NCBI GenBank assembly: GCA_016927595.1
Contig: JAFGMI010000026.1
Location: 62,001-126,000, forward strand
Length of the DNA: 64,000 nt
Direction of reading: 5' to 3'
Source of the DNA: Melioribacteraceae bacterium
Lineage (GTDB): Bacteria > Bacteroidota > Ignavibacteria > Ignavibacteriales > Melioribacteraceae
The translations under genes and the position numbers were made by a program. The notes beneath the pieces were generated by a model that made no database searches, was not told where the DNA came from, and was given only the letters and a program-made list of their open reading frames with translations. How positions within the stretch are numbered: the first letter of the stretch is position 1; every line of letters starts with the position of its first letter. Below, piece by piece: positions 1,163 to 62,307 of the stretch.

Positions 1163-2212
1163 TTATTTATGAAACTCATAACTTGCTTCTTTAATGAAGT
1201 CAACTAAAAACTTTGCGTTTTCCGGGGGTACATCGGGCAGAATACCGTGACCCAGATTGAATATATGTCCGTTGCCCTGTCCGTACGACTGCATTATTTC
1301 GAGTGCCTTTTCAGCAATGACGTTTTTATGTGCGTAAAGAATTGTGGGATCGAGATTACCTTGTAACGCAACTTTATCGTTTACCCTTGTCCGCACACGA
1401 CCGATATCCATGGTCCAATCCAGTCCGAGCACATCGCAGCCGCATTTTATTTGTCTTTTGAATTTATAATAAACGCCCTTGGCAAATACAATTACGGGCT
1501 CATTTTTTCTTTTCAGGCCGGACACAATTTTAGTGATATACTCGTGTGAGAACTCGAAGAATTCATCCTGAGTAAGAATACCTCCCCAGGTGTCGAATAT
1601 TTGTATTGCGTCACAGCCGGCTTCAATTTTTGCGTTTAAATAATCCGTTACGGCATCTGCAATTTTATCGAGCAGAGAGTGGGCGAGTTCCGGATTGTTA
1701 TAAATCATTTTTTTTACTTCGCTGAAGTTCTTACTACCCTTGCCTTCAACCATATACGTAAGAAGCGTCCAAGGCGAACCGCTGAAACCGATAAGAGGAA
1801 CTCTGTTGTTAAGTTCCTGTTTTGTTAATCTGACAGCATCAAGTACATATTTCAGATCCTTTTCAACCTCGATTTTCTTCAAAGCTTTTGCATCACCGGA
1901 AGTTCTTATAGGTTTATGAAATACAGGACCTTTCGATTCAATCATTTCCAGATGCATTCCCATAGCCATCGGTATAACAAGTATATCTGAAAAAAGAATT
2001 GCTGCATCAACACCGATAAGATCAACAGGCTGTATTGTAACCTCGGCAGCAAGTTCTGGTGTTTTACACATTGTAATAAAATCAGATTTAGCTCTGACGG
2101 CTCTGTATTCGGGCAGATATCTTCCCGCCTGGCGCATCATCCAGACGGGTGTTCTTTCCACCTGTTCTTGTCTGCACGCTCTCAAAAAAAGATCATTCTT
2201 AAGGTTGCTCAA
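1163..2212 (-). CDS. hemE: Uroporphyrinogen decarboxylase
   Basis: HemE converts uroporphyrinogen III to coproporphyrinogen III by decarboxylating the four acetate side chains, in the cytosol. The 349-residue product is full length for the family. It has the N-terminal RTPVWMMRQAGRYLPEYR signature and the internal GFSGSPWTLLTYMVEG stretch. The start codon is TTG (complement of 2210-2212), supported by an AGGAG ribosome binding site 8 bases upstream and by alignment of the N-terminus with the family. The gene lies 10 bp after hemD and is followed by hemN. Confidence 0.96.
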   Translation of the reverse strand: MSNLKNDLFLRACRQEQVERTPVWMMRQAGRYLPEYRAVRAKSDFITMCKTPELAAEVTIQPVDLIGVDAAILFSDILVIPMAMGMHLEMIESKGPVFHKPIRTSGDAKALKKIEVEKDLKYVLDAVRLTKQELNNRVPLIGFSGSPWTLLTYMVEGKGSKNFSEVKKMIYNNPELAHSLLDKIADAVTDYLNAKIEAGCDAIQIFDTWGGILTQDEFFEFSHEYITKIVSGLKRKNEPVIVFAKGVYYKFKRQIKCGCDVLGLDWTMDIGRVRTRVNDKVALQGNLDPTILYAHKNVIAEKALEIMQSYGQGNGHIFNLGHGILPDVPPENAKFLVDFIKEASYEFHK

Positions 2213-2222
2213 ATATGTTCTC

Positions 2223-3008
2223 CTAATTCAATAAGTATTCTTTCTGGTAATATTTAATTAATTCCTTGACACAATTTTCAACCGTAAATGTTTCAGGTAC
2301 TAAAGCAACCCTGACGGATTTCTCCGAAATTGCATTTTCGGTAGTTCTGCCGATCGCTACTACTACTTTCCTGAAAAAGTATTCAGCAGTATTCTCGATT
2401 TTCATCAAGTCATTAAAAGCTGCGAATGATGAAGGACTTGTAAATATGAATGCATCCGGTTTGTTCGTTTTTATGAATTCTATCATTTCGGGTATTTCAT
2501 TGTTAACGGCTACTTCATATATGGGCAGCATAACAATATCGGCACCAAGAGAAATTAAACCCGAAGAAAGTTCGTCGCGTGCAATATTCGATGCAGGAAC
2601 GAGAAATTTTTGTCCTTGTAAATTCATGCTGCTGAAATATTTGATTATACTGGAAGCGCTGAATTCCTCAGGTACGATATCTGCATCGATGTTAAATTTT
2701 CTGCATGTCTCGGCTGTTTTATCCCCGGTACAAACAACTTTAACTGATCGGGGTATCACTTTACCGCCGGTTTCAAGAAAACCGTTGAAATGTTTTACGG
2801 CATTTGCCGATGTGAACACGATATAATTATAATTGCCCAGTTCGTTTAATGCGGCAGTTATATTACCGTCTTGTGTTTTAGGAAGAATCTTAATTGCGGG
2901 AAAGGCTATTACTTCAGCACCGGCATCTTCCAGCATAGATATTTCACCTGCAGACTGCTCGCGACTTCTTGTTAATAGTACGGTTTTATTTAGGAGCGGG
3001 GACATCAT
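2223..3008 (-). CDS. hemD: Uroporphyrinogen-III synthase
   Basis: HemD cyclises hydroxymethylbilane to uroporphyrinogen III with D-ring inversion. The 261-residue protein begins with a typical KTVLLTRSREQS segment and contains YIVFTSANAVKHF and DAFIFTSPSSFAAF, the two lobes of the HemD fold. Sequence conservation in this family is low, so the assignment also rests on its position between hemC and hemE. The start overlaps the hemC stop (ATGATG, either ATG possible), which indicates translational coupling. Confidence 0.93.
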   Translation of the reverse strand: MMSPLLNKTVLLTRSREQSAGEISMLEDAGAEVIAFPAIKILPKTQDGNITAALNELGNYNYIVFTSANAVKHFNGFLETGGKVIPRSVKVVCTGDKTAETCRKFNIDADIVPEEFSASSIIKYFSSMNLQGQKFLVPASNIARDELSSGLISLGADIVMLPIYEVAVNNEIPEMIEFIKTNKPDAFIFTSPSSFAAFNDLMKIENTAEYFFRKVVVAIGRTTENAISEKSVRVALVPETFTVENCVKELIKYYQKEYLLN

Positions 3009-3958
3009 CTTCCTGCTTTTGTATATATATCATTAAGTATTTTTGTGGCACCTGCTTTCTTAAGATCTTTTGCAAGTGCTCTTCCGATTTTTTCCGCATC
3101 CGCTTTTTTGCCCCGCATCTTTTTTCTGAATGTAACGGAACCATCAACCGCGCCGACAATTCCTTCGAGGTAAAGACCGTTCGATCGCACTTCGGCAAAT
3201 GCACCGATAGGAACCTGACAGCCTCCTTCAAGGGTCTTCAGCAATGCTCTTTCTGCAAGAACTGCAAGATAAGTGTTTTCGTGGTGCAGCAGTCTGACAG
3301 CTTGTTCGGCTTTTTTATTACCATCCTTTATTTCAATACCTAGCGCACCCTGTCCCACAGCAGGAAGAATAACCGACTTATCAATAATTGAAGAGATGTA
3401 TTTATTCATTTTTAATCTCTCAACACCTGCACGTGCAAGTATAATTGCATCCCAATCTGAATCGATAAACTTTTGAATTCTTGTAGGCACATTCCCTCTT
3501 AGTTCAACGATTTTTAAATCGGGACGCAGGTGCTGAAGCTGGCATCTTCTTCTCAGTGAACCAGTGGCAACTGTAGCGCCGTCAGGTAGTTTATCGATTG
3601 TGATTCCTTTCTTAAGTGCTATCAGCGCATCCTCAACATCATGACGCTTTGTTACGGCTGCAAGCTTCAGACCTTTTGGTATTTCTGTCTGTAAATCTTT
3701 GAGGCTGTGTACAGCAATGTCTATCTCATCGTTCATCAGAGCTAATTCCAGCTCCTTAGTAAATAATCCCTTATCGCCGATTTTCGATAAGGCAACGTCA
3801 AGAATTTTATCGCCTTTCGTTTTCACAAGCTTTAATTCGATCCTTGCATTCTTTAATTTTTTTTTCAGTTCTTTTTTAATATAATTTGCCTGCCAAAGCG
3901 CCAGATCACTCGACCTTGTTCCGATAATCAGCTTTAATTGAGCGTCAGAATTCATCAT
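3005..3958 (-). CDS. hemC: Porphobilinogen deaminase (hydroxymethylbilane synthase)
   Basis: HemC polymerises four porphobilinogen molecules into hydroxymethylbilane. The 317-residue product is normal length. It shows IIGTRSSDLALWQA at the N-terminus, HSLKDLQTEIP, the substrate-binding GSLRRRCQL region, and the LEGGCQVPIGA motif whose cysteine (about C247) carries the covalent dipyrromethane cofactor. It overlaps hemA by 4 bp (ATGA-type junction) and hemD by 4 bp, so hemA-hemC-hemD are tightly coupled. Confidence 0.97.
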   Translation of the reverse strand: MMNSDAQLKLIIGTRSSDLALWQANYIKKELKKKLKNARIELKLVKTKGDKILDVALSKIGDKGLFTKELELALMNDEIDIAVHSLKDLQTEIPKGLKLAAVTKRHDVEDALIALKKGITIDKLPDGATVATGSLRRRCQLQHLRPDLKIVELRGNVPTRIQKFIDSDWDAIILARAGVERLKMNKYISSIIDKSVILPAVGQGALGIEIKDGNKKAEQAVRLLHHENTYLAVLAERALLKTLEGGCQVPIGAFAEVRSNGLYLEGIVGAVDGSVTFRKKMRGKKADAEKIGRALAKDLKKAGATKILNDIYTKAGR

Positions 3959-5256
3959 AAATTTTTGTCATCTTTATTTTGTGAAGAATTAACATTTCCA
4001 TTTAAATTGAATAGTTCTTTGATCATCATTGATCTTAATGCAACCTCATCAGAATTTAATCCGCTTTCTGCAACCTCCCTGAGGTTCATTGTAGGATTAT
4101 GAAGCAGACGTCCCAGCAATCTTCTTGTCATATCCTCAATTTTAATATAATCTTCCCGGCTGACTTTGTGTTTGATTTTTTCGAGTTCATCGTTTCCCAT
4201 TGTTTCAAAAAACTCTCTTACAGCTTTTATTGTTGGTACCACATTAAGAGTATTATACCAGCTGTAAAATCCCACCATCTCTTCCATTATTATTTTATTC
4301 ACTAGCGGTATTTCCGCTTTTCTTTTTTTAATATTCTGATCAACAATAACACCCAGAGAATCAATATCGTTATAGAATACATTGTCCAGTTCTTTTACAG
4401 CAGGATTAATGTCTCTCGGTAACGCTATATCCATCATACACACAGGATTACCTTTTCTTTTTTTCATTGCTGATTTCACAGCATCTTTATCGATTATAAA
4501 CTTTTCAGAACTGGTTGCGGAAAAGATTATATCGAATTCATGGAGATGATCAATAATTTCCGTAAAATCGATCACCTCTGCCTGAAGATTTTGAGCAAGA
4601 ATCTCAGCCTTGCTTCTTGTCCTGTTAGCCAATGTTAATTTACCCACACCAAGATCAGTAAGATGCGTCGCGGCAAGTTTACCCGTTTCGCCCGTGCCTA
4701 TTACCAATGCCGATTTTTCCCTGGGATTTGCAAAAATCTTTTCGACTACCTGAACAGCAGCAAAACTAACGGTAACTGCACCTTCGCCAATTCTGGTTTC
4801 TTTGATTGAGCGCCTCCCGACTTTTACCGCCGTGTCGAACAGTCTTTTAAGAACCGAGTTTGTAAACTGTAAATCTTCAGCAAGCAGGAATGATTCTTTT
4901 ATCTGACCCAGTATTTGACTGTCGCCGATTAATAATGAATCAATTCCCGAAGCAACCTTAAAGATGTGTTTAACAGCACTACAGGAAAAGTACTTTTCAA
5001 AGTTCTGAGATGATAACTGTTTAATCTCTTTAAAATTAGTCAGATATTTAAACAATTTGTAGAATTCCGCTTTACCGTCTTTTTGTACTCCGAAAAGTTC
5101 AGTCCGGTTGCAAGTTGACAAAACAAATCCACCGGCAAGCAGATCTTCCTTAAGCCCCGAAATCAACTCAGTTATTTCAACATCCGAAAGATGCAGTGCT
5201 TCCCTCAGTTCGATGGGAGCAGTTCTATGATTAATTGAGATGCCGACTATGTTCAT
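3955..5256 (-). CDS. hemA: Glutamyl-tRNA reductase
   Basis: HemA reduces glutamyl-tRNA(Glu) to glutamate-1-semialdehyde, the first committed step of the C5 tetrapyrrole pathway. The 433-residue protein has the N-terminal GISINHRTAPIELRE signature, the catalytic cysteine in LSTCNRTELFG (C49), and an NADPH-binding domain with VIGTGETGKLAATHL. A helical dimerisation domain forms the C-terminus. It follows the CcsA/HemX-like gene by about 30 bp. HemL and HemB are not in the window. Confidence 0.97.
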   Translation of the reverse strand: MNIVGISINHRTAPIELREALHLSDVEITELISGLKEDLLAGGFVLSTCNRTELFGVQKDGKAEFYKLFKYLTNFKEIKQLSSQNFEKYFSCSAVKHIFKVASGIDSLLIGDSQILGQIKESFLLAEDLQFTNSVLKRLFDTAVKVGRRSIKETRIGEGAVTVSFAAVQVVEKIFANPREKSALVIGTGETGKLAATHLTDLGVGKLTLANRTRSKAEILAQNLQAEVIDFTEIIDHLHEFDIIFSATSSEKFIIDKDAVKSAMKKRKGNPVCMMDIALPRDINPAVKELDNVFYNDIDSLGVIVDQNIKKRKAEIPLVNKIIMEEMVGFYSWYNTLNVVPTIKAVREFFETMGNDELEKIKHKVSREDYIKIEDMTRRLLGRLLHNPTMNLREVAESGLNSDEVALRSMMIKELFNLNGNVNSSQNKDDKNL

Positions 5257-5287
5257 TTAAAACTTTCTTCTCTTCTCACATATTCAA

Positions 5288-6112
5288 TCAATAAAACACA
5301 TGGAAACTTTTTGCCAATATATTCGTAAAGATCATCGATAACATGGCCAGAATAAATCCGCTCAGATAGAGTTTTATTACACGTTTCCCGTACCAATTGC
5401 CAACGGATTTAGCGAGTATTCCCACTCCGAAGATAATCCAAACCAGTGTGGTCGAGATAATTTTAGGATCGAGATAACTGAAATTCGGAAAAGCCTCCGG
5501 CAGCCAGATTATACCGATAGCGATTGCAAAGGTTAACAGCACGAATCCTATTATAACCGAATAGTAAGTCATTTTTTCGAGTGTTTCCAGACTAGGCAGT
5601 CTTTCGAATATAAGTCCGAATTTATTAAGCTTGAGCTGCTTGTAAAGCGCAGCATATAACAATCCGTAAACAGCCGACATTGCAAAGCCCGAATAACCAA
5701 GCATCGCGCTTATTACATGCAAACTCAGAAGTCTGTTCAGCAAAACCTCTGGCACAACGGTCAGATCCTTTATGAATAAACTTGAAATGAACTGGAAGAC
5801 AAAAGGGATAATTATAATGAAAAGCCCTGTGCCTCTTACATCTGAGAGCAGTTCAAGAATAAAGTATGAGAAAGATATTGAGAATGCGATTAATGTAAAA
5901 ATCTCGAACTTATTTGTAATCGGGAAATGATTAAACTCTATTGTCCTTGCCGCAAGATACAAGAAATGCATACCAATGGTAATGAACAGGAAAATCCGTT
6001 TGGAATTATTCAGCAGACTCGTCTGCTTCCTGAAGTCCATTAAATATGCTGTAAGAGTAATAATATAAACAGCAGGCAGAACAATATTTAATGCATGAAT
6101 CAGTTGTATCAC
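5288..6112 (-). CDS. CcsA/HemX-family cytochrome c assembly protein
   Basis: This 274-residue integral membrane protein has about eight predicted helices and fits the CcsA/CcmC/HemX superfamily. Members either handle heme during c-type cytochrome maturation (CcsA, system II) or sit next to hemA as HemX. Family-like features are a histidine in the TM segment LLSLHVISAMLGYSGFAMSA and a conserved acidic/tryptophan loop reduced here to WLPEAFPNFSYLDPK. It is the first gene of the hem operon. No long ResB/Ccs1 partner is visible in the window. HemX and a true CcsA cannot be separated by eye, although the many multiheme cytochromes nearby make a maturation role attractive. Confidence 0.8.
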   Translation of the reverse strand: MIQLIHALNIVLPAVYIITLTAYLMDFRKQTSLLNNSKRIFLFITIGMHFLYLAARTIEFNHFPITNKFEIFTLIAFSISFSYFILELLSDVRGTGLFIIIIPFVFQFISSLFIKDLTVVPEVLLNRLLSLHVISAMLGYSGFAMSAVYGLLYAALYKQLKLNKFGLIFERLPSLETLEKMTYYSVIIGFVLLTFAIAIGIIWLPEAFPNFSYLDPKIISTTLVWIIFGVGILAKSVGNWYGKRVIKLYLSGFILAMLSMIFTNILAKSFHVFY

Positions 6113-6937: not shown

Positions 6938-7927
6938 TTATTGTACTAAATCGTAGCTGTGAATTTCAGTTGATGCATTAAATTTGCCGGCCGGCATGGT
7001 ATCGTACGACATACCGTTTACGCCGAACAACAAAGTTTTGCCGTCATAACCGAGTACTCTTAAGTATGCTGCAACATGTGCTGAAGTCTGACCGGTATAG
7101 CAATATACAACAACAGGCTTGTCGGTTGGCAGCGTTTTAAGCGATGTTGCATATGTTAATTCAGAAGGACTTGGCGTGTATTGTACAGCACCTGGTATAT
7201 GTCCCCAGTTATACTGATCGAGAGGCCAGTAGTTTACAATATAATAACCGCTTAAATTAGCAAACACAGTTGTTTTGTTTATCGTAGACGGTGTAAATCC
7301 TTCAGCCAGTACGGCTTCAACTCTTTCTCTAAGAATATCTGCGCCGTTTTCTTTACCGGTATCCAGTTCCGGTAAATCACCTGCAGGATTTTTAGCAGTA
7401 GCTGTTGTGGTAAACTGGGAAGCATAAGTATTACCGACATTGCTTGTGCTTGTCCATGATCCGGAAGTTGCCTGATTCCAGCTGCTCATACCCCATTTCA
7501 AATCTTTTACATTGGTAAAGCCCAGCATACGCAGCAAACCTGTTGCCCAGCCGGCAGTCTGACCTGAATAGCATGCAATAACAACTGTAGCTTTACCCGA
7601 GAGATTGTTTGTTTCGTAATATGTTAACAGATTGGCAGTAGCCACATTAACTGCTCCCGATATATGCCCGTTTGCGAAATCCGCAGCTGATCTGATATCG
7701 AGCACTGCAACTGTAGAAGGAGCTGTTAAAAGCAGAGTGTTAAGATCAGCAGCAGTTATCATAGCAGGAAATGTTGCTAAAACATTCTGATCGTCAAGGT
7801 ATTTCGCCAGTACTTCCGCCTCATTAACTTGTACGGGCTCGGTACCGCCGTCATCATCGCTACAGGAAGTGCTTAAAAACAGAAACGGAATGATAAGCAT
7901 CAGGTAAAACAATTTTCTTAATTGCAT
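6938..7927 (-). CDS. Double-rhodanese-domain lipoprotein
   Basis: A lipoprotein signal (LFLSTSC, lipidated C22) precedes two rhodanese-homology domains in 329 residues. Domain 1 spans about 35-150 with active-site loop ACYSGQTAGWA (C119). Domain 2 spans about 195-320 with YCYTGQTSAHVAAY (C276). Both keep the persulfide-forming cysteine, and both have the preceding HISGAVN or HIPGAVQ motif, so both could be active. The protein is probably anchored in the periplasmic face of a membrane or in the outer membrane. It lies 41 bp after an 11-heme-site lipoprotein, which suggests sulfane-sulfur handling (thiosulfate, polysulfide) linked to multiheme electron transfer. That link is inference from context. 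Confidence 0.9.
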   Translation of the reverse strand: MQLRKLFYLMLIIPFLFLSTSCSDDDGGTEPVQVNEAEVLAKYLDDQNVLATFPAMITAADLNTLLLTAPSTVAVLDIRSAADFANGHISGAVNVATANLLTYYETNNLSGKATVVIACYSGQTAGWATGLLRMLGFTNVKDLKWGMSSWNQATSGSWTSTSNVGNTYASQFTTTATAKNPAGDLPELDTGKENGADILRERVEAVLAEGFTPSTINKTTVFANLSGYYIVNYWPLDQYNWGHIPGAVQYTPSPSELTYATSLKTLPTDKPVVVYCYTGQTSAHVAAYLRVLGYDGKTLLFGVNGMSYDTMPAGKFNASTEIHSYDLVQ

Positions 7928-7968
7928 AGTGTTTCTCCTTTATTGGTTTGATTGTGTCCAGATTTATT

Positions 7969-9324
7969 CTAGTTTACTCCCCAACTTGCCGGGAGCTTTC
8001 CGTCAACACATAAGTGTTTTGTTGCGTTTATTTCAAAATCTTTGAGATCCGACTCGAACAGGTAATACTCCTTATTCCTGTATACATCTTCTTCTTTAAT
8101 TATATGACAAGCGTCGTAACAGGCTTTCCCTTCTTCCACCTGGGTTCTGACGGTCCATTTAATTATGTTGTGCGGAGTGGTGTACTTGTAAGTAGGGAAA
8201 GCATCAAAGTTTGCAAGGTTATCAACTCCGTATTCCTTCCAGCTGTCGGGGGCTGAAAGAGATTGTCTTAAAGTCGCCAGTTTGTAAGGTCTTAATTCAG
8301 GAATCGGATTGATCCCGATTTTAAATTTCTGATGTGCCGGTATTCTGGCACCCGCGCCGTGAATGTGACAGCTTCCGCAGTTATTGTAATCCTGTGAATG
8401 ACAGGCGTTACAATTGAATGTATTGATGTGCTGAACATGATAATCGTTAGACTCTTCAACATTCTGATGACAGTATTCACATTTGGGCAGGGTGGGCATG
8501 GCATATCGGGTTTCTTTAATCTCACCGGTCCCATGTATTTCATTTTTCGAATGACAGTCTATGCATACAAAGCCCGCTTTCGTTAAATGAACATCAGGTA
8601 CCGTTCCAACTGCCTGACCCAGATACGCATGACCGCCGCGGCTTACGTGGCAGGCTACGCAAACATTCAGCATATCGGGAGTTCTGTTAAAATTATGGCC
8701 ATTACTTAGTCCGCCGCCGCCTGCGCTGGGACGTACAACATGGCAATCGCCGCACGTACCGTGGCATTTACCACAGTTTACATCATAACCTTCTTTCATT
8801 TCTTCGGGCAGATTGTCAAAGTCAGTGGGATGTGTACCATATCCGCCTCTTATAACAACCATTCTTTTTTGACCCCAGCCCTGTTCGTGGAGACTGTTGG
8901 TGGTTCTTTGAACAATTTGTTCATGGCACCCGGCGCATTTTTCCTGCGATTGTTTCGAGGGATGTTTTATAAAGTCGCCTGAGTGAGCTAATTCCTTATC
9001 ATCGGTTCCGTCAACTCCATTATGGCATTTTACGCATTCCATTCTTCCATGCATTGTTACCTTGAAAGTTTCATATCCGGAACCACCCAGGTATACTCTG
9101 TCGTAGGGTTCATAATGTGGTGCATCACCTCCGCAACCGCCACCGCCGGTAGAAGGCGGGTCGGGAGTATAAACATCTTTCAGATGCTCGTAATTGGTAT
9201 GACACCCTTCACAGGAATTAACTTTTGCTACCGATTCGGATTCAATTGGAGCATCATCCGGATTATCTTCTTTACATGCGATAAATAGAAATGTAAGCAT
9301 TACAACCATCGATAGGTATTTCAT
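7969..9324 (-). CDS. Multiheme c-type cytochrome lipoprotein, 10 CXXCH plus one CX3CH
   Basis: The 451-residue protein has a lipoprotein signal (TFLFIAC). It contains ten CXXCH motifs: CEGCH, CVKCH, CAGCH, CGKCH, CGDCH, CVACH, CIDCH, CEYCH, CNACH and CGSCH. Near residue 404 an eleventh site reads CYDACH, that is CX3CH, confirmed in the DNA. A glycine-rich stretch (PPSTGGGGCGGDAPHY) follows the first heme. CGKCHGTCGDCH places two hemes very close together. It is likely an electron carrier on the periplasmic side of a membrane or on the cell surface. It is the first gene of operon B, 45 bp downstream of a -24/-12-like element and below a TGAAAC cluster. Substrate and exact family are not recognised. 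Confidence 0.9.
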   Translation of the reverse strand: MKYLSMVVMLTFLFIACKEDNPDDAPIESESVAKVNSCEGCHTNYEHLKDVYTPDPPSTGGGGCGGDAPHYEPYDRVYLGGSGYETFKVTMHGRMECVKCHNGVDGTDDKELAHSGDFIKHPSKQSQEKCAGCHEQIVQRTTNSLHEQGWGQKRMVVIRGGYGTHPTDFDNLPEEMKEGYDVNCGKCHGTCGDCHVVRPSAGGGGLSNGHNFNRTPDMLNVCVACHVSRGGHAYLGQAVGTVPDVHLTKAGFVCIDCHSKNEIHGTGEIKETRYAMPTLPKCEYCHQNVEESNDYHVQHINTFNCNACHSQDYNNCGSCHIHGAGARIPAHQKFKIGINPIPELRPYKLATLRQSLSAPDSWKEYGVDNLANFDAFPTYKYTTPHNIIKWTVRTQVEEGKACYDACHIIKEEDVYRNKEYYLFESDLKDFEINATKHLCVDGKLPASWGVN

Positions 9325-9427: not shown

Positions 9428-9545
9428 TGAAACGATATGTTTCGGGATAAAGAAAAATATGTTGGAATATACTTAGCAGCTTCGAAAAAGACCAATATTG
9501 TAACAATGAAACAATGAAACACCTATGAAACAGTTGAAACGTTTA
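9428..9545. promoter_or_regulatory. Cluster of TGAAAC hexamers (candidate upstream activator sites)
   Basis: TGAAAC occurs at 9428-9433, 9507-9512, 9515-9520, 9526-9531 and 9535-9540. The first is paired with GTTTC (9439-9443) and the last with GTTTA (9541-9545) as imperfect palindromes. The cluster lies about 45 to 155 bp upstream of the -24/-12-like element of operon B and directly behind the activator gene's stop codon, where enhancer sites for a sigma-54 activator would be expected. Two more copies precede the activator gene itself. Confidence 0.6.
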
Positions 9546-10883
9546 ACTATCGATTCCTAATTGCTTCATTTTTCGCCATAATGTAGTCCTGCCTATGCCG
9601 AGCTTTTTAGCAGCTTCGGTTTTATTCCAGTGATGTTCTTCAAGTACGGAAATAAGCTGCACTGCCTCGTGTCCGGGATTATTTTCTGAGGTATTGTCCT
9701 TAAAACTAAATGTTGCGGGACTTGCAGATTTATTCTCGTTAAAATTTGCTGGAAGTTTATTTGAGTCGATAATATTTGAATTGTTTGTCCTCACAAATGA
9801 ATATTCAATTACATTCTCTAGCTCCCTTACATTTCCAGGCCATCTGTAATTCAATAGCAAATCCAGCGCCCTGTCTTCAATATCGAGAATTTCTTTCTTA
9901 TACATTAAAGACAATTTCCTGAGAAAGTGTTGCACCAGAGGAATTATATCTTCCGTACGTTCTCTGAGCGGCGGTATATGTATAGGAATAACGCTCAATC
10001 GATAATACAGGTCTTCCCTTAAAATGCCTTTCTTCAGAGCATGTTGGATATTTACATTTGTTGCGGAAATAATCCTTACATCAATCTTTCTGGTTACTGA
10101 TTCACCAACACGTTCGAAGGAACCTTCCTGCAATACTCTCAGGAGCTGCAGCTGCATTTGAAGCGGCATTTCGGCTACTTCATCCAAAAAAATGGTTCCG
10201 TTATTTGCAATCTCAAATCTTCCCGGGCGATCCTTTATCGCATCCGTAAAAGCCCCTTTTACGTGACCGAACAATTCACTTGCAAGCAGGTTGGAAGGAA
10301 AAACAGAACAATTAACCTTTATATAAGGACTTCCTTTTCTTTCGCTTGTAATCTGAATTGCATTTGCAATCATCTCCTTGCCGGTTCCTGACTCGCCATG
10401 AATTAACACAGGTGCATCGGAAGTTGAAATTTCCCGTATTAGTTCGAATATTTCTTTCATCTGTTTGCTGTGCCCGATTATGCCGTGAAATCTCTGCTCT
10501 TTATCTATATCCTTTATCATTATGTAATCCGACATATCCCTGAAAGAAATAATTCCTCCCTGCGGTTCCCGCTCTTCATCGTATAATACGGAGGAATTAA
10601 GTTTAATAGGTTTTATTTCGCCCGACTTTGTCGATATGTTCGATTCAAAATCATAAATGGGTCTGCCCGATTTTAATGCAATGGCAATGGGACAGTCGGT
10701 ATAGCACAGCTTCGATCGGAATACATGCTTGCAGAATCTGCCTATTATATCTTCGCGTTTATAGCCGGTTATTTTTTCAGCTGCCTTGTTGAAAAAGTTT
10801 ATTCTGAAATTCTTATCCACGGTGAAAACACCTTCGCCGATGGAATCTAATATATGATCTTTTAGTTTGCTGTTCAGGTCCAT
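9543..10883 (-). CDS. Sigma-54-dependent activator with PAS sensor domain
   Basis: The 446-residue protein has three parts. An N-terminal PAS domain (about 8-120) is followed by a central AAA+ sigma-54 interaction domain with Walker A GESGTGKE (163-170), the L1 loop GAFTDA (210-215, canonical GAFTGA) and Walker B FLDE (232-235). A C-terminal Fis-type helix-turn-helix follows (about 405-446, EEHHWNKTEAAKKLGIGRTT). There is no receiver domain, so control is not by phosphotransfer. The PAS domain carries CKHVFRSKLCYTDCP (C51, C60, C64), a possible redox or metal site. The gene is transcribed alone between a terminator (10931-10958) and operon B, and probably controls the adjacent cytochrome operons. 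Confidence 0.93.
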   Translation of the reverse strand: MDLNSKLKDHILDSIGEGVFTVDKNFRINFFNKAAEKITGYKREDIIGRFCKHVFRSKLCYTDCPIAIALKSGRPIYDFESNISTKSGEIKPIKLNSSVLYDEEREPQGGIISFRDMSDYIMIKDIDKEQRFHGIIGHSKQMKEIFELIREISTSDAPVLIHGESGTGKEMIANAIQITSERKGSPYIKVNCSVFPSNLLASELFGHVKGAFTDAIKDRPGRFEIANNGTIFLDEVAEMPLQMQLQLLRVLQEGSFERVGESVTRKIDVRIISATNVNIQHALKKGILREDLYYRLSVIPIHIPPLRERTEDIIPLVQHFLRKLSLMYKKEILDIEDRALDLLLNYRWPGNVRELENVIEYSFVRTNNSNIIDSNKLPANFNENKSASPATFSFKDNTSENNPGHEAVQLISVLEEHHWNKTEAAKKLGIGRTTLWRKMKQLGIDS

Positions 10884-10930: not shown

Positions 10931-10958
10931 GATAAAAAAAGCCGCCTTCAAGCGGCTT
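10931..10958 (-). terminator. Rho-independent terminator of cytochrome operon A
   Basis: The arms aagccgc (10939-10945) and gcggctt (10952-10958) form a 7-bp GC-rich stem. Reading on the minus strand, it runs straight into a run of seven T. It lies just past the stop of the 29-heme-site protein and separates operon A from the activator gene. Confidence 0.9.
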
Positions 10959-10976: not shown

Positions 10977-13601
10977 CTAGTTTCCTAATGCGTTTGCAAT
11001 GCCATTTATGTGTTTCATCTTGTCAATTATATTACCTTCATCATCAACAACACCCTGATGACACGTAGAACATTGATTCAGTTCCCATGTCCCCGAGTGA
11101 CCGTTAGGAAGAGCTGTAATAAGATTACCCGATTCATCTATCTTTCCGTGACAGGTACCGCAGGCAGCCTGGCTGCCGTCTACTATATTCCAAACAGGTG
11201 AATAATTATTCCCAGTCATTTCATCGGCGGTGAACATAACCGGCAGGCTTGATTCCGACTTCTTGAATACAAAATTTCCATGACAATATGTATTTGAACA
11301 TGTGTAATTGTTAAAGTCATACGATGCAGTCGCAGCAGTGTTTGTAAATTCACCGAATTGTATTGTCGCCGGCAGTGCATCAATATGTCCGGCTACGCTT
11401 TCGGGTTCCGGATGACATTCATAACACTGTATATTTTCGGATACCGACACATTGTATAAATGGGTTGCATGAGCACCAACACCCTTAAATGCTGTTGATG
11501 ATTCACCTGCCAGATCGTTTGGAGGCGCAACCATAGAACCATTATTAAAATCACCATGACATGTATTACATGCCTCGGGTCCGCTTGCAGCTGAATGACA
11601 CGTATTGCATGTAGATGCAACCAAACCTCCTGAATAACTAGCGCCATGACATGTACTACAGTTATCCATTTCCCAGTTCGTACTGATTAAATACTTGCCG
11701 TGGAAGTTCGGTGACCCGGCTGTTATTATGCCCTGCTGGTGAACTGCTATGGAACTATGACATGATTCGCATGTACTGGCTGACATTCCGCCGCTGAACG
11801 ATTCACCGTGACAGCTCGTGCATGATACCAGTTCAAAATTATTATCCGCCATAAATTTCCCGTGGAAATTATTCGAGCTGGGATTGGTTAATCCTGTCTG
11901 ATGTACATTTATTGAAGCATGACATGTTACACACGATGGTGAAGCAGTTCCTCCGGCGTATTCCGACCCGTGACATGCGGTACATTCATTTAATTTCTTA
12001 TCGTTTGCTTTGAAATATCTGCCGTGAAATTCTGCCGATTCGGATTTCATTATATCAGCCGTATGAACCCCAATTGTTCCGTGACATGTTACACAGGTTG
12101 GCGATGACTGTCCTCCGGCGTAATCCTCTCCGTGACAAGTAGCGCATGTTGTCATATTAACATTGTTAGCATCAACATATTTACCATGGAACGCATCTGA
12201 ATTCTGATCCAGAATGCCGTCTTTATGAACAGATATTGTCGCATGGCATGTTAAACAGGTGGGTGATGCCGTTCCGCCTTCAAAACCGCTGCCGTGACAT
12301 GTAGCGCAGGCATCAAGCTCAACACTATTCGCGCCCAGATATTTACCGTGAAAATTAGCAGATGTTTCATCTGTGTAACCTGTTTGATGAACACCTACAG
12401 AACTATGGCAGGTTACGCATCCGTAAGCTGCTAATCCTCCTGTGAATCCTGTTCCGTGACAGCTTGCGCATGCCGCTAATTCGACATTATTATTTGCAAT
12501 ATATTTACCATGGAATGATTCGGCAGTAGCATCCATTATCCCATCTTTGTGAATATTTATCGTACTGTGACATGTTGTACAGCCGGGAGATGCTATCCCT
12601 CCCGAAAAATCCTCTCCGTGACAGGAGGCGCATTGATTTAACGAAGCATTATTTTCACTGAAATACTTACCGTGAAAATAGGGCGATGCTTCATCCAACA
12701 ATCCTGTTTTGTGAACTGCTACTGAACTATGGCACGAGCTGCAGCCCGGAGCTGAATCGCCGCCTTCGAAATTAGTTCCATGGCAGCCTGAACAAGTGCT
12801 TATCTCAAGACCCTGATCGGCAATATACTGACCGTGTGTTTCCAACGTCATTGAACCGTGTACGTCAATCGAACCATGACATGTTATGCACGATGGCGCT
12901 ATTAAGCCGCCTTTATAGTCAGCACCGTGACAAGTAGAACAAGTTGATAAATCTATGTTATTGCTTCCGATATATTTACCGTGAAAGTTGGGTGAAGCCT
13001 GATCAAGCATTCCGGCTTGATGAACCGAAATTCCCCTGTGGCATTCGGCGCATGTAGGAGCTGCAAGACCTCCGGTAAATACCGCACCGTGACAGCTACC
13101 GCATGTTTCCATATCCACTCCCAGAGCCTGCATATATTTTCCGTGAAATGCACTTGATGCCGGATCGAGAATACCTGCTTTATGTACGCTGATTGTCGAA
13201 TGGCATGTTGAGCAGGTGGGTGATGATAAACCTCCTTGATAATTGGTTCCGTGACACATTGTACAAGCTGACATATCCTTATTTGCAGCAGCAAGATATT
13301 TTCCGTGAAAATCGGCTGACTGCTCGTCCAGAATGCCCGATTTATGAATGGCTATATCTGCATGACATTCCACACAGCTTTTATGAGATGAACCGCCTGA
13401 AAAATTTGTGGCGTGGCATTCTCGGCACACTTCAAGACCACTTTCATCCAATCTGCCATGAAATTCTGCTGATTCAGGTGTCAGCACTCCTTTACCGTGT
13501 ATAGAAACTGCTGCCGGAACAGTTATATCTTCCTTAACATCACTGCATGAAGAAAGTAAGGCAAGTACAATAATTGAGATTATATAATAATATTTAGTCA
13601 T
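10977..13601 (-). CDS. Giant repeat multiheme cytochrome lipoprotein with 29 potential heme sites
   Basis: The 874-residue protein has a lipoprotein signal (LALLSSC, lipidated about C19). From about residue 47 to 690 it consists of 12 tandem modules of about 54 residues. Each begins FHGKY and carries two CXXCH motifs, a GG pair and a VH or IH before the next module. The C-terminal part (about 690-874) has four more CXXCH (CNTCH, CYECH, CGTCH, CSTCH) and one CX4CH (CSNTYCH). This resembles the CxxxxCH/CXXCH domain described from Geobacter. The total is 28 CXXCH plus one CX4CH. The regular array suggests a long heme wire or an extracellular electron-transfer terminus. It is the last gene of operon A, 15 bp after the 14-heme gene. 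The function is inferred from context. Confidence 0.9.
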   Translation of the reverse strand: MTKYYYIISIIVLALLSSCSDVKEDITVPAAVSIHGKGVLTPESAEFHGRLDESGLEVCRECHATNFSGGSSHKSCVECHADIAIHKSGILDEQSADFHGKYLAAANKDMSACTMCHGTNYQGGLSSPTCSTCHSTISVHKAGILDPASSAFHGKYMQALGVDMETCGSCHGAVFTGGLAAPTCAECHRGISVHQAGMLDQASPNFHGKYIGSNNIDLSTCSTCHGADYKGGLIAPSCITCHGSIDVHGSMTLETHGQYIADQGLEISTCSGCHGTNFEGGDSAPGCSSCHSSVAVHKTGLLDEASPYFHGKYFSENNASLNQCASCHGEDFSGGIASPGCTTCHSTINIHKDGIMDATAESFHGKYIANNNVELAACASCHGTGFTGGLAAYGCVTCHSSVGVHQTGYTDETSANFHGKYLGANSVELDACATCHGSGFEGGTASPTCLTCHATISVHKDGILDQNSDAFHGKYVDANNVNMTTCATCHGEDYAGGQSSPTCVTCHGTIGVHTADIMKSESAEFHGRYFKANDKKLNECTACHGSEYAGGTASPSCVTCHASINVHQTGLTNPSSNNFHGKFMADNNFELVSCTSCHGESFSGGMSASTCESCHSSIAVHQQGIITAGSPNFHGKYLISTNWEMDNCSTCHGASYSGGLVASTCNTCHSAASGPEACNTCHGDFNNGSMVAPPNDLAGESSTAFKGVGAHATHLYNVSVSENIQCYECHPEPESVAGHIDALPATIQFGEFTNTAATASYDFNNYTCSNTYCHGNFVFKKSESSLPVMFTADEMTGNNYSPVWNIVDGSQAACGTCHGKIDESGNLITALPNGHSGTWELNQCSTCHQGVVDDEGNIIDKMKHINGIANALGN
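11595..13463 (-). repeat. Twelve tandem coding repeats of about 160 bp
   Basis: This is the DNA encoding the 12 diheme modules of the giant cytochrome. The unit is about 160 bp (54 codons), diverged at the nucleotide level but with fixed positions for the FHGKY, CXXCHG, GG, CXXCH and VH elements. Module 4 is a few residues shorter. It is a coding repeat produced by duplication, not a CRISPR or a mobile element. Confidence 0.9.
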
Positions 13602-13616
13602 TTTCCATTACCTGCT

Positions 13617-14819
13617 TTAATTGTGACAATAACCACAGAAGCCTTGTCCGGCTTGTTGATTCAAAGCAAACGGATCGGTATGGCAGTCGTAACAAACTGC
13701 GCCCGTATCGCCATGCCAATCGCCATTAATATTTTTCATGAAGCCGAGTTTGTGTGTTCTGGAATTGTTTCCTCTTATACCGTCGGGATCGGAATGACAC
13801 AGTATACAGCTTGGATCTGCGCCCTGCGTATCATGGCACGAAGCACATCTTTCGATATCTCTTCTTGCAAGTTCCGCATGAAGCCCTCCGCCCGAGCCAA
13901 CTCCGTAAGTAAAGAAATTCGGATTGCTGTGAGACTGCGGCATAATTCCACCCAATGCATAGTCGCCCGAGGATGGTGGATTATGACATTCGGCGCAGAA
14001 GATCTCCGTTTGATGACAGGTTGAACATTCAAAACTCTTTCCCTTAAGATCCATGCCGTGCGTAAATCTGTAATTTAAATCGTGCACACGTGTAATCTGC
14101 TGCTGTTTTGCACCGTCAATTATTCTGTGCGGTGAATACGGTGTATAAAAATCCAACGCAGTATTATTCACATCGAGAGCTGTCGTTGCAACATGGCAGT
14201 CCTCACAGAAAGAATTATCGTGGCACATCGCACATTCGGCATCGGGATGATTCGAGCTGAATTTATGATTCCTGAAGAAATTTGCTGTCTTGTGTGACTC
14301 GGGTGTTAAATCGGAAGTGGCAATATGACACGATTCACAAACATTTACCGCAACCGACTGATCATTATGGCATTGGTAACAAATCATCATCGAAGGATTG
14401 GCGCTTGTGAGATCGGTACTGTAATCAACTTCTTCCAAGCCTTTATGACATGCCTGGCATTCCATTTCACTCTCGGTTACGTGAAACTGGTGGCTGAAAA
14501 TAAGTTTTGAAGGTTCGCTTACAAATGGTTCGTAAGTATCTTCGTAATGGCATGTGTTGCATGATTCATCATCCTCAACGTCATGGCAGCCGGCACAAAT
14601 ATCTTTTTCGGGCAGAAGTCTGTCGGACAAGGCAGTGCTTTCAGGTACACCTGTATGGCAATCGGCACATCCCACCTCCAATTCGGTATGCAATTGGTGT
14701 GAGAACTTGATTATATTCTTGTTCGATTTTAGATCGTCCGCTATTGAATTTACTGAACCTGCAAACCACAAAGCCGTCAAAGCAGCAAAAAGAGATATAT
14801 AAAAAACTTTTGTTTTCAT
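13617..14819 (-). CDS. Periplasmic 14-heme c-type cytochrome
   Basis: The 400-residue protein has an N-terminal Sec signal (FYISLFAALTALWFAGSVNS) without a lipobox. It has 14 CXXCH motifs: CADCH, CAGCH, CNTCH, CQACH, CYQCH, CESCH, CAMCH, CEDCH, CSTCH, CAECH, CASCH, CILCH, CYDCH and CGYCH. FSHQLH and FSHQFH stretches supply likely distal histidine ligands, as in NapC/NrfH- and cytochrome c7-like modules. The last motif lies at the extreme C-terminus. It is 1 bp from the beta-barrel gene. In porin-cytochrome conduits the periplasmic cytochrome and the porin are encoded together, which fits here. The precise family is not recognised. Confidence 0.92.
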   Translation of the reverse strand: MKTKVFYISLFAALTALWFAGSVNSIADDLKSNKNIIKFSHQLHTELEVGCADCHTGVPESTALSDRLLPEKDICAGCHDVEDDESCNTCHYEDTYEPFVSEPSKLIFSHQFHVTESEMECQACHKGLEEVDYSTDLTSANPSMMICYQCHNDQSVAVNVCESCHIATSDLTPESHKTANFFRNHKFSSNHPDAECAMCHDNSFCEDCHVATTALDVNNTALDFYTPYSPHRIIDGAKQQQITRVHDLNYRFTHGMDLKGKSFECSTCHQTEIFCAECHNPPSSGDYALGGIMPQSHSNPNFFTYGVGSGGGLHAELARRDIERCASCHDTQGADPSCILCHSDPDGIRGNNSRTHKLGFMKNINGDWHGDTGAVCYDCHTDPFALNQQAGQGFCGYCHN

Positions 14820-14820
14820 A

Positions 14821-16089
14821 TCAAAGCACGTTTAAGTTAGTGTTAAACCAGTGATTGACCTTAAATAACAATCTAAGGTCGTTTTTATAAATCTTGTTAT
14901 CCATGTACTGACCTTGAATATCAAACGAAAGACTTCTGAAAGGTCTCACGTTTAATCCCAATAAAACACTTGCAAGGTTATTCTTTTCGGAATCAGGTGA
15001 AAGTTTATATGAGGTATAACTCAATCCCAGAGAAGGTGTTATAAGACCTTCCAGAAATGTTTTGGCAGTATAAAGCGAAACTGCATCCAGTTCGCCTGCA
15101 TAACCGAAAGTTTTCCTGTAGCTTACCGAACCTAAAAACGTATTCAATCCCAGTGAAAGCCTTTGTGCGTTGTCGTCTTCGTACTTAACATAACCGAATT
15201 TGCCGAATACTGTATATTCGTCGGATAATTTATAATCCAGACCGGCTTCAATTTCCTGGCTGTTGCCGTAATTAAATACCGAAAATATTGAATTGTATCT
15301 TATTCTCGGTTCTCTGTAATTATAATAAAAGTTTACACCCAGGTTTTCGATCTGGCTGTATCTGCCAGCAAATTCGATCTTGGAGGTTGTTTCTAAATTT
15401 ACATCGTACTCGTACGAAGAATTTAATTCCAGATCATCTTCAAGTATGTACGACACTTCACCCGAAATGTACTTGTATTGGTTCGAATTTCTCTGGATAA
15501 GTACGGTTATGGGGTTAAAGTTGTCGTCCAGCCTTATTGCCTCATAGGATTGAGGCTTAAAATTCTTATCAATAAAACCAACAGCGAATCTGAAATTCTC
15601 AACTGCTGTTGAAACGAGTTCACCGCCCAATACATAATCATTCGCAAAATCATCAGTAATTTCCAGCTTCTGATAAGCCGGAACATTTCCGCCGTAAAAA
15701 CCCGTTAATTCGAATCCTTTATATTTCAGCGACAGGTTCGCTCCATCGTAAACACCGCCGGCAACGGTATTAATCAATGACTGACGCCCGATTTTTATTG
15801 TTGCTATATCGAACAGGTTGCGACCTTCCAGATAAAGATTGTACATACGGAGTCTCGGATCGGTATCGAGAGAATTCATTACATCCGCTTCGAAATTTAT
15901 TCTGGTTCGTACAGAGAATTGTCCTTCATTGATGTTAAGTAGGAGTGATTGAAAAGTCCTCAGATAAGTTTCTGAGGACTCATTTAAATCATATCTTTCA
16001 AATGTATATGCTGAAGATGAAAACCTGCCATTAAAATTTTGTGCCGATAAAACAACGGGTATAATAAGTATTAACAAATACTTTTTCAT
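14821..16089 (-). CDS. Outer-membrane beta-barrel protein (candidate porin of an electron conduit)
   Basis: The 422-residue protein has a signal peptide (MKKYLLILIIPVVLSAQ). A long series of alternating hydrophobic and polar strands with aromatic girdles follows, for example FELTGFYGGNVPAY, YKYISGEVSYIL and VNFYYNYREPRI, consistent with a barrel of roughly 16 to 22 strands. It has no heme motif and no TonB plug. It sits between a tetraheme and a 14-heme cytochrome gene with 1- and 17-bp gaps. The most economical reading is the porin of a trans-outer-membrane porin-cytochrome complex, analogous in role to MtrB or the Geobacter Omb proteins. Homology to those was not visible by eye. Confidence 0.8.
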   Translation of the reverse strand: MKKYLLILIIPVVLSAQNFNGRFSSSAYTFERYDLNESSETYLRTFQSLLLNINEGQFSVRTRINFEADVMNSLDTDPRLRMYNLYLEGRNLFDIATIKIGRQSLINTVAGGVYDGANLSLKYKGFELTGFYGGNVPAYQKLEITDDFANDYVLGGELVSTAVENFRFAVGFIDKNFKPQSYEAIRLDDNFNPITVLIQRNSNQYKYISGEVSYILEDDLELNSSYEYDVNLETTSKIEFAGRYSQIENLGVNFYYNYREPRIRYNSIFSVFNYGNSQEIEAGLDYKLSDEYTVFGKFGYVKYEDDNAQRLSLGLNTFLGSVSYRKTFGYAGELDAVSLYTAKTFLEGLITPSLGLSYTSYKLSPDSEKNNLASVLLGLNVRPFRSLSFDIQGQYMDNKIYKNDLRLLFKVNHWFNTNLNVL

Positions 16090-16106
16090 TATATACCTTC
16101 TTCAGT

Positions 16107-16655
16107 TTATTTTGCAGGTTTGTTGTGCTCTATTTTCTTGTACATTGTTGCAAAATCCCATTTGGCTTCCGGATGTTTCGGATCGACCTTTTTCTTTGCA
16201 TCCATCGAATGACATGTCAGGCACATCTCTTCTATCTGTTTTTCATTTTCCCAGACAACAAGACCTGCTGCTACTGAAGCTGCCCTGTCTTTCATTACTT
16301 TCATAGATTTATACTCGGAACCGGCACCATGGCATGATTCGCACTGAACACCGTCTTCAATACTGAATTTTTTATCATTCAGACTTGCATCAGATCCGGC
16401 ACCTGTGGTATGACACTGCATACAATCATTATTTTTAAGTGCTTCGGGATTTAACTTGGCTATATTCTTGTACGCATTTGCATGCGCACTTTCTTGCCAA
16501 ATCTTCAACTGCGCACCGTCAGCCTCTTTTTTATGACACATACCGCATTTGGCAGCGCCGATGAATCCCGGTTTTTTGTCGTCACCGTTATTGTTCAATC
16601 CGTAGCTTGTAACTACGAAAGCAGACAACAACAGGAAAGCAAAAAGCTTTTTCAT
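16107..16655 (-). CDS. Tetraheme cytochrome, c554-like
   Basis: The 182-residue secreted protein has a signal peptide (LFAFLLLSAFVVTSYG) and four CXXCH motifs: CGMCHKK, CMQCHTT, CESCHGA and CLTCHSM. The spacing, the GAAKCGMCHK start, WQESAHANAY and GVQCESCHGAGSEY are typical of the cytochrome c554/cytochrome c family fold. It is the first gene of operon A and starts 37 bp downstream of a -24/-12-like element with an AAGGAG ribosome binding site. It is a likely soluble periplasmic electron shuttle feeding the porin-cytochrome partners. Confidence 0.92.
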   Translation of the reverse strand: MKKLFAFLLLSAFVVTSYGLNNNGDDKKPGFIGAAKCGMCHKKEADGAQLKIWQESAHANAYKNIAKLNPEALKNNDCMQCHTTGAGSDASLNDKKFSIEDGVQCESCHGAGSEYKSMKVMKDRAASVAAGLVVWENEKQIEEMCLTCHSMDAKKKVDPKHPEAKWDFATMYKKIEHNKPAK

Positions 16656-17032
16656 AATTGATCTCCTTTTATTATATGATAAGATACAAATGTCAATTTA
16701 TATACCACTAAAATAATAGATAAATAATAAAATAGTATCATTTTATCTTAATTTTTTTCCTTGAGTCTCAAAATTGCTAAAAACTTCTAGAAAATCAACA
16801 TTAATTCATCCATTATTTTTCTAACAATCGAAATTTTTTCCGTTTGATTGATACGTGAAAATTTTTACCCTTAATGATATTCAGTAATATATTTCATGAT
16901 CTGTCCGATAATTTCTACACCTGCTGTACTTTGCTGAATACTGTTATCAATGTTGGAATTTAAACTAATATCATATAATTTTTATCTGTATTTCTAATTA
17001 CTTAAATGCTAATCAGAAATTGTGAATCACTT
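16656..17032. other. Divergent intergenic region between cytochrome operon A and the PP2C phosphatase
   Basis: About 375 bp of AT-rich DNA lies between divergent genes. It holds the operon A promoter element at 16690-16707. No TGAAAC hexamer is seen here, unlike in front of operon B. No clear promoter for the plus-strand phosphatase and no stable hairpin were found. Confidence 0.5.
16690..16707 (-). promoter_or_regulatory. Sigma-54-like -24/-12 element, operon A
   Basis: On the minus strand the site reads TGGTATATAAATTGACAT. GG and GA are exactly 10 bases apart. It is identical at 15 of 18 positions to the element of operon B at 9368-9385, and it lies 37 bp before the start codon. A sigma-70 reading (TTGACA as -35) would leave only 14 bp to TATAAT and put the transcript start on the ribosome binding site. 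A -24/-12-type promoter fits better. Confidence 0.5.
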
Positions 17033-61857: not shown

Positions 61858-62307
61858 ATGACCAGATATCACAATCACATATTTATGACTGTTGCAGTAT
61901 TGATGATATTTGCTTTAAGCTGCAGCGAAGTTTTGGAACCGGTATACAGTACTCAGGTGAAAATTGCTCAAATCGGTGGCTGCGTCTCTGCTGCAAATAC
62001 CAGAAATTCTTCAATGGGAGATTCATCTTTTTTCTACGAGTTCAAGGATATGCTAAAAGTAGAATTCTGGCTTAGCGGTAATTGCTGTCCCGATTCGGAT
62101 AGATTTGCATCGGATTACCGGATATCAAACGATACGATATTTGTAACTATGGCTGATACTGCAGCAAATTTATGCAGGTGTATTTGCAATTACAATATTG
62201 TGGCAGAGTTTAGTAATCTTGCATTCGACAGATACTTATTCCAGGTGCGAAGAGAAGATTGGATCAGTAGGTACATCTTTTATTCTGAATATGTTTTCAG
62301 GAAATAA
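61858..62307 (+). CDS. Small cysteine-rich lipoprotein, unknown function
   Basis: The 149-residue protein has a signal with lipobox FALSCSE. Predicted beta strands and a cluster of cysteines (GNCCPDSDRF and LCRCICNYN) suggest a compact extracytoplasmic domain. Similar CxCxC-Y segments occur in small Bacteroidetes lipoproteins, but no named family is recognised. It stands alone, with 294 bp of featureless sequence upstream. Confidence 0.7.
   Translation: MTRYHNHIFMTVAVLMIFALSCSEVLEPVYSTQVKIAQIGGCVSAANTRNSSMGDSSFFYEFKDMLKVEFWLSGNCCPDSDRFASDYRISNDTIFVTMADTAANLCRCICNYNIVAEFSNLAFDRYLFQVRREDWISRYIFYSEYVFRK

Follow-up and report, generated by a model that had tools for sequence, protein, structure and literature searches.

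The locus examined here raises two questions: whether four tandem genes of a Melioribacteraceae bacterium encode an electron conduit across the outer membrane, and how the last of them came to encode a lipoprotein with 29 potential heme sites. The genes lie in a stretch of 64,000 nucleotides (the window; positions 62,001 to 126,000 of contig JAFGMI010000026.1, assembly GCA_016927595.1) from a genome of 3.85 Mb in 59 contigs, and coordinates are those of the window unless another contig is named. An earlier reading without database searches (the sequence-only reading) had proposed a porin-cytochrome system made of a tetraheme cytochrome, a beta-barrel, a 14-heme cytochrome and a 29-site lipoprotein, and the open reading frames (ORFs), coordinates, gaps and motif counts found here agree with it. 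We consider it likely that the products of the four genes form a conduit of the porin-cytochrome (Pcc) type, carrying electrons across the outer membrane. That its lipoprotein is a heme wire of adjustable length is a more tentative proposal. The features of the operon are as follows.

16107-16655, minus strand: tetraheme c-type cytochrome of the cytochrome c554 family, 182 aa, 4 CXXCH
14821-16089, minus strand: outer-membrane beta-barrel, 422 aa, no Cys; 24 strand segments and no plug in the AlphaFold2 (AF2) model
13617-14819, minus strand: 14-heme c-type cytochrome with an N-terminal signal sequence, 400 aa, 14 CXXCH
10977-13601, minus strand: multiheme lipoprotein, 874 aa, 29 potential sites (lipobox, 11 two-heme modules and a 7-heme C-terminal core)
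11706-13463, minus strand: array of 11 two-heme modules of about 54 aa within the lipoprotein, residues 47-632, from a hidden Markov model (HMM) of the module
10977-11705, minus strand: conserved 7-heme C-terminal core of the lipoprotein, from core matches in relatives, including CSNTYCH and a 12th module match
10939-10958, minus strand: terminator-like hairpin closing the operon, 8 pairs (5 G-C), then a T-rich tail, TTTTTATCTT

Gene order and distribution of the cluster

The four ORFs run in tandem on the minus strand (10977-16655) with intergenic gaps of 17, 1 and 15 bp and hold 47 potential heme sites (4+14+29), counted as motifs. In a six-frame translation, CXXCH occurs in just four open stretches longer than 60 codons, the three operon cytochromes and a 451-aa neighbour (7969-9324), and the heme motifs of the operon are therefore far beyond chance. 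As to the "strong terminator" of the sequence-only reading, the hairpin is on the right strand and plausible, but it is not statistically special, since the region holds 3 such sites while shuffles average 5.5. A sigma-54 promoter upstream of the operon was rejected: the motif matches the window 34 times, fewer than the expected 37.9, and never within the upstream interval 16656-17005.

Conservation of the order was assessed in three sets of loci (numbered L below, genomes G) that overlap in species: 50 loci from 49 genomes, window included, 80 loci on named contigs and 20 more distant loci in the class. Adjacency counts were read from printed gene lists, as the automatic table missed neighbours (e.g., at L060 and L107, both with a 14-motif ORF). 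The barrel was found in 49 of 58 genomes, the window's own included, with a single match each, apart from G042, whose matches lie on two contig pieces, and G043, which has a weak second match; among 394 genomes of the phylum it was found in 57, all of them within the same class. The 14-heme protein (E <= 1e-30) occurs in the same 49 genomes and is missing from the same nine, so that the two are concordant in 58/58. A cytochrome with 10-14 motifs is the ORF after the barrel in 48/50 loci, the two ORFs being separated by short gaps or overlapping, and the other two loci are cut by contig ends (L044, where the N-terminus of a 14-heme protein was read, and L050, which ends inside the barrel). Upstream of the barrel, a 3-4-motif ORF is present in 45/50 loci (not L032, L039, L040, L044 or L049), and a lipoprotein with 4-28 motifs follows in 45/50 (not L038, L044, L046, L050 or L063). 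The 80 named contigs have the same layout, and in the 20 distant loci the barrel is followed by an ORF with 12-14 motifs in all but two cases (18/20; not L195 or L201). Melioribacter roseus (G010, locus L069), which belongs to the family of the window's host, also carries the cluster. The order is thus widely kept and the cytochromes are co-conserved with the barrel, as the sequence-only reading had asked to be checked.

That reading had also suggested that the system is not well described in this phylum, which the literature does not support. Shi et al. (2014) reported a pcc cluster, IALB_1840-1837, in Ignavibacterium album (PMC4245776), and Pcc porins were later described in M. roseus and other Ignavibacteria (PMC7399161, PMC6137239), OmbB-like porins being named in two of these sources (PMC4245776, PMC7399161). 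By description, IALB_1840-1839-1838-1837 has the architecture of the window cluster: an associated periplasmic cytochrome, a porin, a 400-aa periplasmic cytochrome with 14 motifs and an outer-membrane cytochrome with an atypical heme motif; IALB_1839 and IALB_1838 are called distantly related to their Geobacter counterparts in the same text (PMC4245776). Geobacter OmbB-OmaB-OmcB likewise combines a porin with a periplasmic and an outer-membrane cytochrome in one cluster, although OmaB has 8 hemes and OmcB 12, and the likeness is again one of description (PMC4245776). Shewanella MtrCAB likewise has a barrel, a periplasmic and a surface multiheme cytochrome, the last being a prediction for the window cluster, whereas the window genome lacks PF11854 and its periplasmic cytochrome has 14 motifs, not the 10 of the MtrA type. 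From an electrode biofilm, a Bacteroidetes metagenome-assembled genome was described with a seven-gene cluster of six multiheme cytochromes (five with signal peptides, three with transmembrane helices) and one barrel, with best hits in Bacteroidetes and Ignavibacteriae (PMC8258643). By description, it resembles the seven-gene layout of locus L075, but all six proteins are called multiheme, while one of the six in L075 is a b-type protein. In the literature searched, we found no experimentally characterized conduit for this group, and the string "Ignavibacteri-" occurs nowhere in two recent multiheme-cytochrome papers (PMC11475568, PMC12977616).

Barrel and periplasmic cytochromes

The barrel model (68 sequences) has a pLDDT of 85 and a pTM of 0.75, with strand segments spanning residues 17-417. 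The top chains listed by VIA were TonB-dependent receptors (for PirA, a Z of 19.6 and an rmsd of 4.2 A across 341 residues; for BtuB, a Z of 18.6), pilus ushers of the FimD/PapC type reached Z of about 17-18 (FimD 17.7), and many chains tied near the best Z. Foldseek placed FimD first, with a query TM-score of 0.55, the highest among the matches listed. No NCBIfam family and no Pfam family above its cut-off matched the barrel, the best being LptD (18.6 bits, cut-off 22.4). The sequence-only reading had suggested MtrB-type profiles as a check, and these matched nothing here: PF11854 (MtrB/PioB) has 0 matches in the genome and none to the barrel at E <= 0.1, and the barrel profile finds no MtrB among Protein Data Bank (PDB) sequences at E <= 10. 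Homology to MtrB was rejected on these profile searches; MtrB was also not among the matches listed by VIA, which excludes nothing. We read the model as a wide barrel of about 22-24 strands in some 400 residues, plug-less and probably roomy enough for a cytochrome. Because a wide pore left empty would leak, such a barrel would fit a cytochrome plug.

The 14-heme cytochrome is presumed to fill it. An alignment of 65 sequences shows 13 CXXCH motifs and another 12 His to be invariant, and the 14th motif is kept in at least 90%. The profile of the 14-heme cytochrome matches c7-type proteins: the best PDB chain is 3ov0_A (1.4e-22), with a best stretch limited to profile positions 32-167. This closest PDB sequence relative is a 318-aa "cytochrome c family protein", which we take to be a dodecaheme of the Geobacter GSU1996 type with 12 hemes. 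The 43 PDB hits at E <= 0.01 include MtrC chains and no chain named MtrA. With the AF2 model, which is poor, VIA compared 6 chains; the 3 listed are subunits of Alternative Complex III, aligned within residues 1-165 (Z 5.6-6.5), and MtrA is not among them, which excludes nothing. The signal sequence points to a periplasmic location.

The tetraheme protein is probably a periplasmic electron feeder. It matches PF13435 with 58.2 bits (cut-off 20.8), and its closest PDB sequence is cytochrome c554 (5.6e-7). Among 96 sequences of this gene, non-motif His are invariant at positions 58 and 177 only and Met121 is 99% conserved; given two invariant non-motif His, at least one heme may be without a His distal ligand. 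Cytochrome c554 itself has at least one heme without such a ligand.

The lipoprotein and its two-heme steps

The fourth protein has 28 CXXCH motifs and one CX4CH (CSNTYCH, residue 768). The module HMM matches it 12 times, the 12th match lying at the start of the C-terminal core, and the module follows the pattern HG.. His, CXXCH, CXXCH, VH/IH His (module 5 starts THGQY). Each of the 11 modules has at least four His, that is, two heme His and two candidate distal ligands; with two CXXCH and at least two extra His, each could supply its own distal ligands. A simple assembly artefact was judged an unlikely source of the repeat, since the modules have diverged (mean amino-acid identity 45%, range 25-61%) and Tandem Repeats Finder found one short array only in the DNA (period 13, 2 copies) and none of module length. 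The lipobox LSSC is followed by SDVKED. Across 94 lipoproteins, S stands at +2 after the lipid Cys in 86 and D or E at +3 in 78%, resembling the surface-export signals SDDDD/SDDFE of Bacteroidetes lipoproteins given by Lauber et al. (2016; PMC5080379), which would be in line with a surface location.

A script found the lipoprotein in 127/150 loci, the other 23 being contig ends or pattern misses (e.g., L060, L107 and L187). These reduce to 105 distinct proteins by their last 150 residues, all matched by the window core at 5e-19 or better, and to 95 with a recognized C-terminus; left aside were seven at contig ends (L022, L065, L091, L109, L122, L131 and L133), L139, which is split into two ORFs, and L196 and L200, whose ends fall outside the pattern (7 sites each). 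The family plan is a lipobox, a variable number of two-heme modules and a fixed core of seven sites (six CXXCH, one CX4CH). Among the 95 proteins, the number of sites is 7 in 56, 9 in 25, 11 in 5, 13 in 1, 15 in 1, 17 in 2 and 29 in 1, with the remainder at 5 (1), 6 (2) and 12 (1). Thus, 91/95 distinct intact lipoproteins fit 7+2n. The misfits are L067 (cut at a contig end), L085 (a stretch of unreadable residues at the expected place of a site), L198 (CFCH in place of one motif) and L054. In the lipoprotein of L054 and L074, it is the core itself that is duplicated (12 sites), not the module. We found no description of the 7+2n series in the mostly open-access literature searched. Arbour et al. 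(2020) report OmbB-like Pcc systems in two Ignavibacteria and multiheme cytochromes with up to 40 motifs, and they note for Chloroflexi that gain or loss of motifs may proceed by pairs or by multiples (PMC7399161). The sequence-only reading was right to call a 29-site repeat an unusual partner: relatives mostly have 7 or 9 sites.

The lipoproteins of the two congeners, G001 (L052) and G002 (L051), have 7 sites and no extra modules. The core is found in 134/164 genomes of the order at E <= 1e-15, and open frames longer than 600 aa that match it occur in these 164 genomes only in the window, G477 and G478. The latter two (L205 and L206; genus g209, of another family) also have 29 sites, with 12 module matches each, but a different gene order, barrel, 14-heme cytochrome, lipoprotein and tetraheme cytochrome, the last standing after and not before. 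In a tree built with 125 modules of 43 proteins, weak owing to low identities, 39/43 first modules are nearest to another protein's first module, whereas 9/10 middle modules of the window are nearest to a module of the window protein itself, which would point to internal duplication. Modules of G477 and G478 are more alike at even spacing (67-69% identity) than at odd (56%), i.e., they were duplicated in pairs; the window modules show no such pattern (48.3 versus 47.7%). Shared ancestry of the two 29-site arrays was tried and rejected, as middle modules at matched positions resemble each other no more than those at unmatched positions do: 47.2 versus 47.7% for the window and L205 (3404/5000 shuffles reach the matched value) and 48.0 versus 47.6% for the window and L206 (1613/5000), compared with 83.3 versus 58.4% for L205 and L206 (0/5000). 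Separate expansion is the simpler reading of these sequences, and that both arrays end at 29 may be coincidence. A clean story of separate origin is not favored by the window's middle modules, which are 48.7% identical among themselves and 47.6% to those of L205, and the arrays may instead descend from a very old common array that was later shuffled.

We tentatively propose, as an idea somewhat short of even chances, that the lipoprotein is a length-adjustable heme wire: whole two-heme cassettes would be added between the anchor and the fixed 7-heme core, so that reach or capacity steps by two hemes while the barrel and its 14-heme plug stay constant, and at least two lineages would separately have built 11-cassette, 29-heme forms.

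Proposed electron flow and genomic surroundings

In the proposed route, a membrane-bound quinol oxidase of the multiheme/cytochrome b kind, encoded elsewhere in the genome, would donate electrons to cytochromes of the periplasm, the tetraheme protein among them. From there the 14-heme cytochrome would be reduced; lodged in the wide barrel as its plug, it would conduct the electrons through the outer membrane to a lipoprotein exposed on the cell surface. The eleven two-heme modules of this lipoprotein, with their own candidate ligands, may lengthen its heme chain and so serve reach or charge storage. The gene order, the joint occurrence of the genes, the heme motifs, the arithmetic of the modules and the barrel model are observed; assembly into a complex, the surface location, outward flow, the acceptor and the role of the extra modules are inferred. 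A candidate oxidase is present on another contig of the same genome (C50; L207, 6317-15053), a cluster of a 23-heme protein, a 328-aa b561-like protein (28.3 bits, cut-off 30.1) and a 16-heme protein with a b561 domain (60.6 bits). Near the conduit, a protein of more than 760 aa with at least 14 motifs lies within four genes upstream in 16/50 loci, and those printed read as 16-18 hemes plus cytochrome b, a label that in the locus table comes from length and motif number only. M. roseus, for which Kadnikov et al. (2013) list Fe(III) among the acceptors (PMC3534657), carries the cluster; this fits outward flow, as do the cytochromes resembling quinol oxidases that lie close to the cluster or elsewhere in the genome.

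Several observations weigh against this picture. The barrel's pTM of 0.75 and query TM-scores of at most 0.55 among the Foldseek matches listed limit what its model can say, and the AF2 model of the 14-heme protein (pLDDT 62, pTM 0.43) is unusable for placing that protein in the barrel. No large cytochrome lies within four upstream genes in 28/50 loci (some of which begin near a contig end), and the 20 distant loci frequently lack the tetraheme gene or have another in its place. The lipid-anchor signal deviates from published ones at +4, which is hydrophobic. Finally, although I. album carries a cluster of this kind, it was reported to be unable to use Fe(III) or Mn oxides for growth (cited in PMC4245776).

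This last report also bears on a rival explanation, in which the same conduit serves electron uptake, or exchange with soluble or organic acceptors or partner cells, and not solid metal oxides. Shi et al. conclude likewise for I. album (PMC4245776), and such pathways can run both ways according to PMC8258643; the quinol-oxidase-like cytochromes mentioned above and the presence of the cluster in the Fe(III) reducer M. roseus, however, fit outward flow. We regard this explanation as rather unlikely, if well worth considering. Less probable still is that the array is mainly a charge store (a heme capacitor), or faces the periplasm, and is not a surface wire. Its modules have diverged and range in number from 0 to 11 while the core is never lost, and the export-signal match is partial, all of which would suit such a role, but the fourth gene holds the position of the outer-membrane cytochrome in described Pcc clusters, and in its product the lipid Cys is followed by S and acidic residues.

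We give hardly any credence to the idea that the barrel is an ordinary substrate porin lying by chance between cytochrome genes. Generic porins do occur among its Foldseek matches, and it lacks a family match above cut-off; against this stand its 58/58 concordance with the 14-heme gene, the kept order, the short gaps or overlaps and the wide strand count. It also matches just once in its own genome. An ordinary, unrelated porin, the outcome that would have undone the sequence-only reading, was rejected on its co-occurrence with the 14-heme protein, which shares its 49/58 genomes. We therefore retain the Pcc-type conduit as the likely reading.

Downstream of the operon on the minus strand, the genes run in the order PAS/sigma-54 regulator, 10-11-site cytochrome, double rhodanese, TPR protein, CcsA-like protein, hemA, hemC, hemD and hemE, including the following features.

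9543-10883, minus strand: regulator with PAS, sigma-54 activator and Fis-type helix-turn-helix domains, next gene downstream (PF00158, 226.6 bits; PF13426; PF02954)
7969-9324, minus strand: second multiheme lipoprotein-like cytochrome, 451 aa, 10 CXXCH and 1 CX3CH (PF14522, 37.5 bits)
1163-6112, minus strand: CcsA-like cytochrome c assembly protein with hemA, hemC, hemD and hemE (profile matches)

The regulator is downstream of the conduit in 13/50 loci, window included. The second cytochrome is a possible accessory; together with the double-rhodanese protein (the pair spans 6938-9324) it occurs in 10/50 loci, window included, and the Geobacter ext cluster with ExtI also holds a rhodanese (PMC5877670). 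The CcsA-like protein scores 101.6 bits with the CcsB model, below its cut-off of 187.6, and 80.2 with PF01578, above cut-off. In 7/50 loci (window included) and 15/80 contig loci, both ccsA and hemA are found on the downstream side of the conduit, and in L025, L027, L031, L056 and L058 the ccsA/hem genes come directly after the lipoprotein. Upstream of the barrel, an 11-motif ORF is present in 9 of the 20 distant loci (L186-L193 and L197). A cytochrome b sequence was read beside it in L187 and L190, and Rieske-sized ORFs occur in several such loci; we read this set as a further quinol module combined with the same outer-membrane core. Beside the 23-heme cluster of contig C50 stands a divergent 9-heme protein of 909 aa that carries a type IX (Por) secretion tail, and by motif such a protein adjoins the conduit in 3/50 and 10/80 loci, as confirmed by Pfam for L123.

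The core machine had been predicted before, and the strong modular expansion of its lipid-anchored cytochrome is the unusual part. With the lipoprotein core in 134/164 genomes, the conduit appears to be near-standard equipment of an order whose members occur on electrodes and in iron-reducing sediments. Because it is mainly the number of lipoprotein modules that changes, the natural 7-, 9-, 11-, 17- and 29-site versions would provide a series for relating heme number in extracellular electron transfer to reach, rate and storage.

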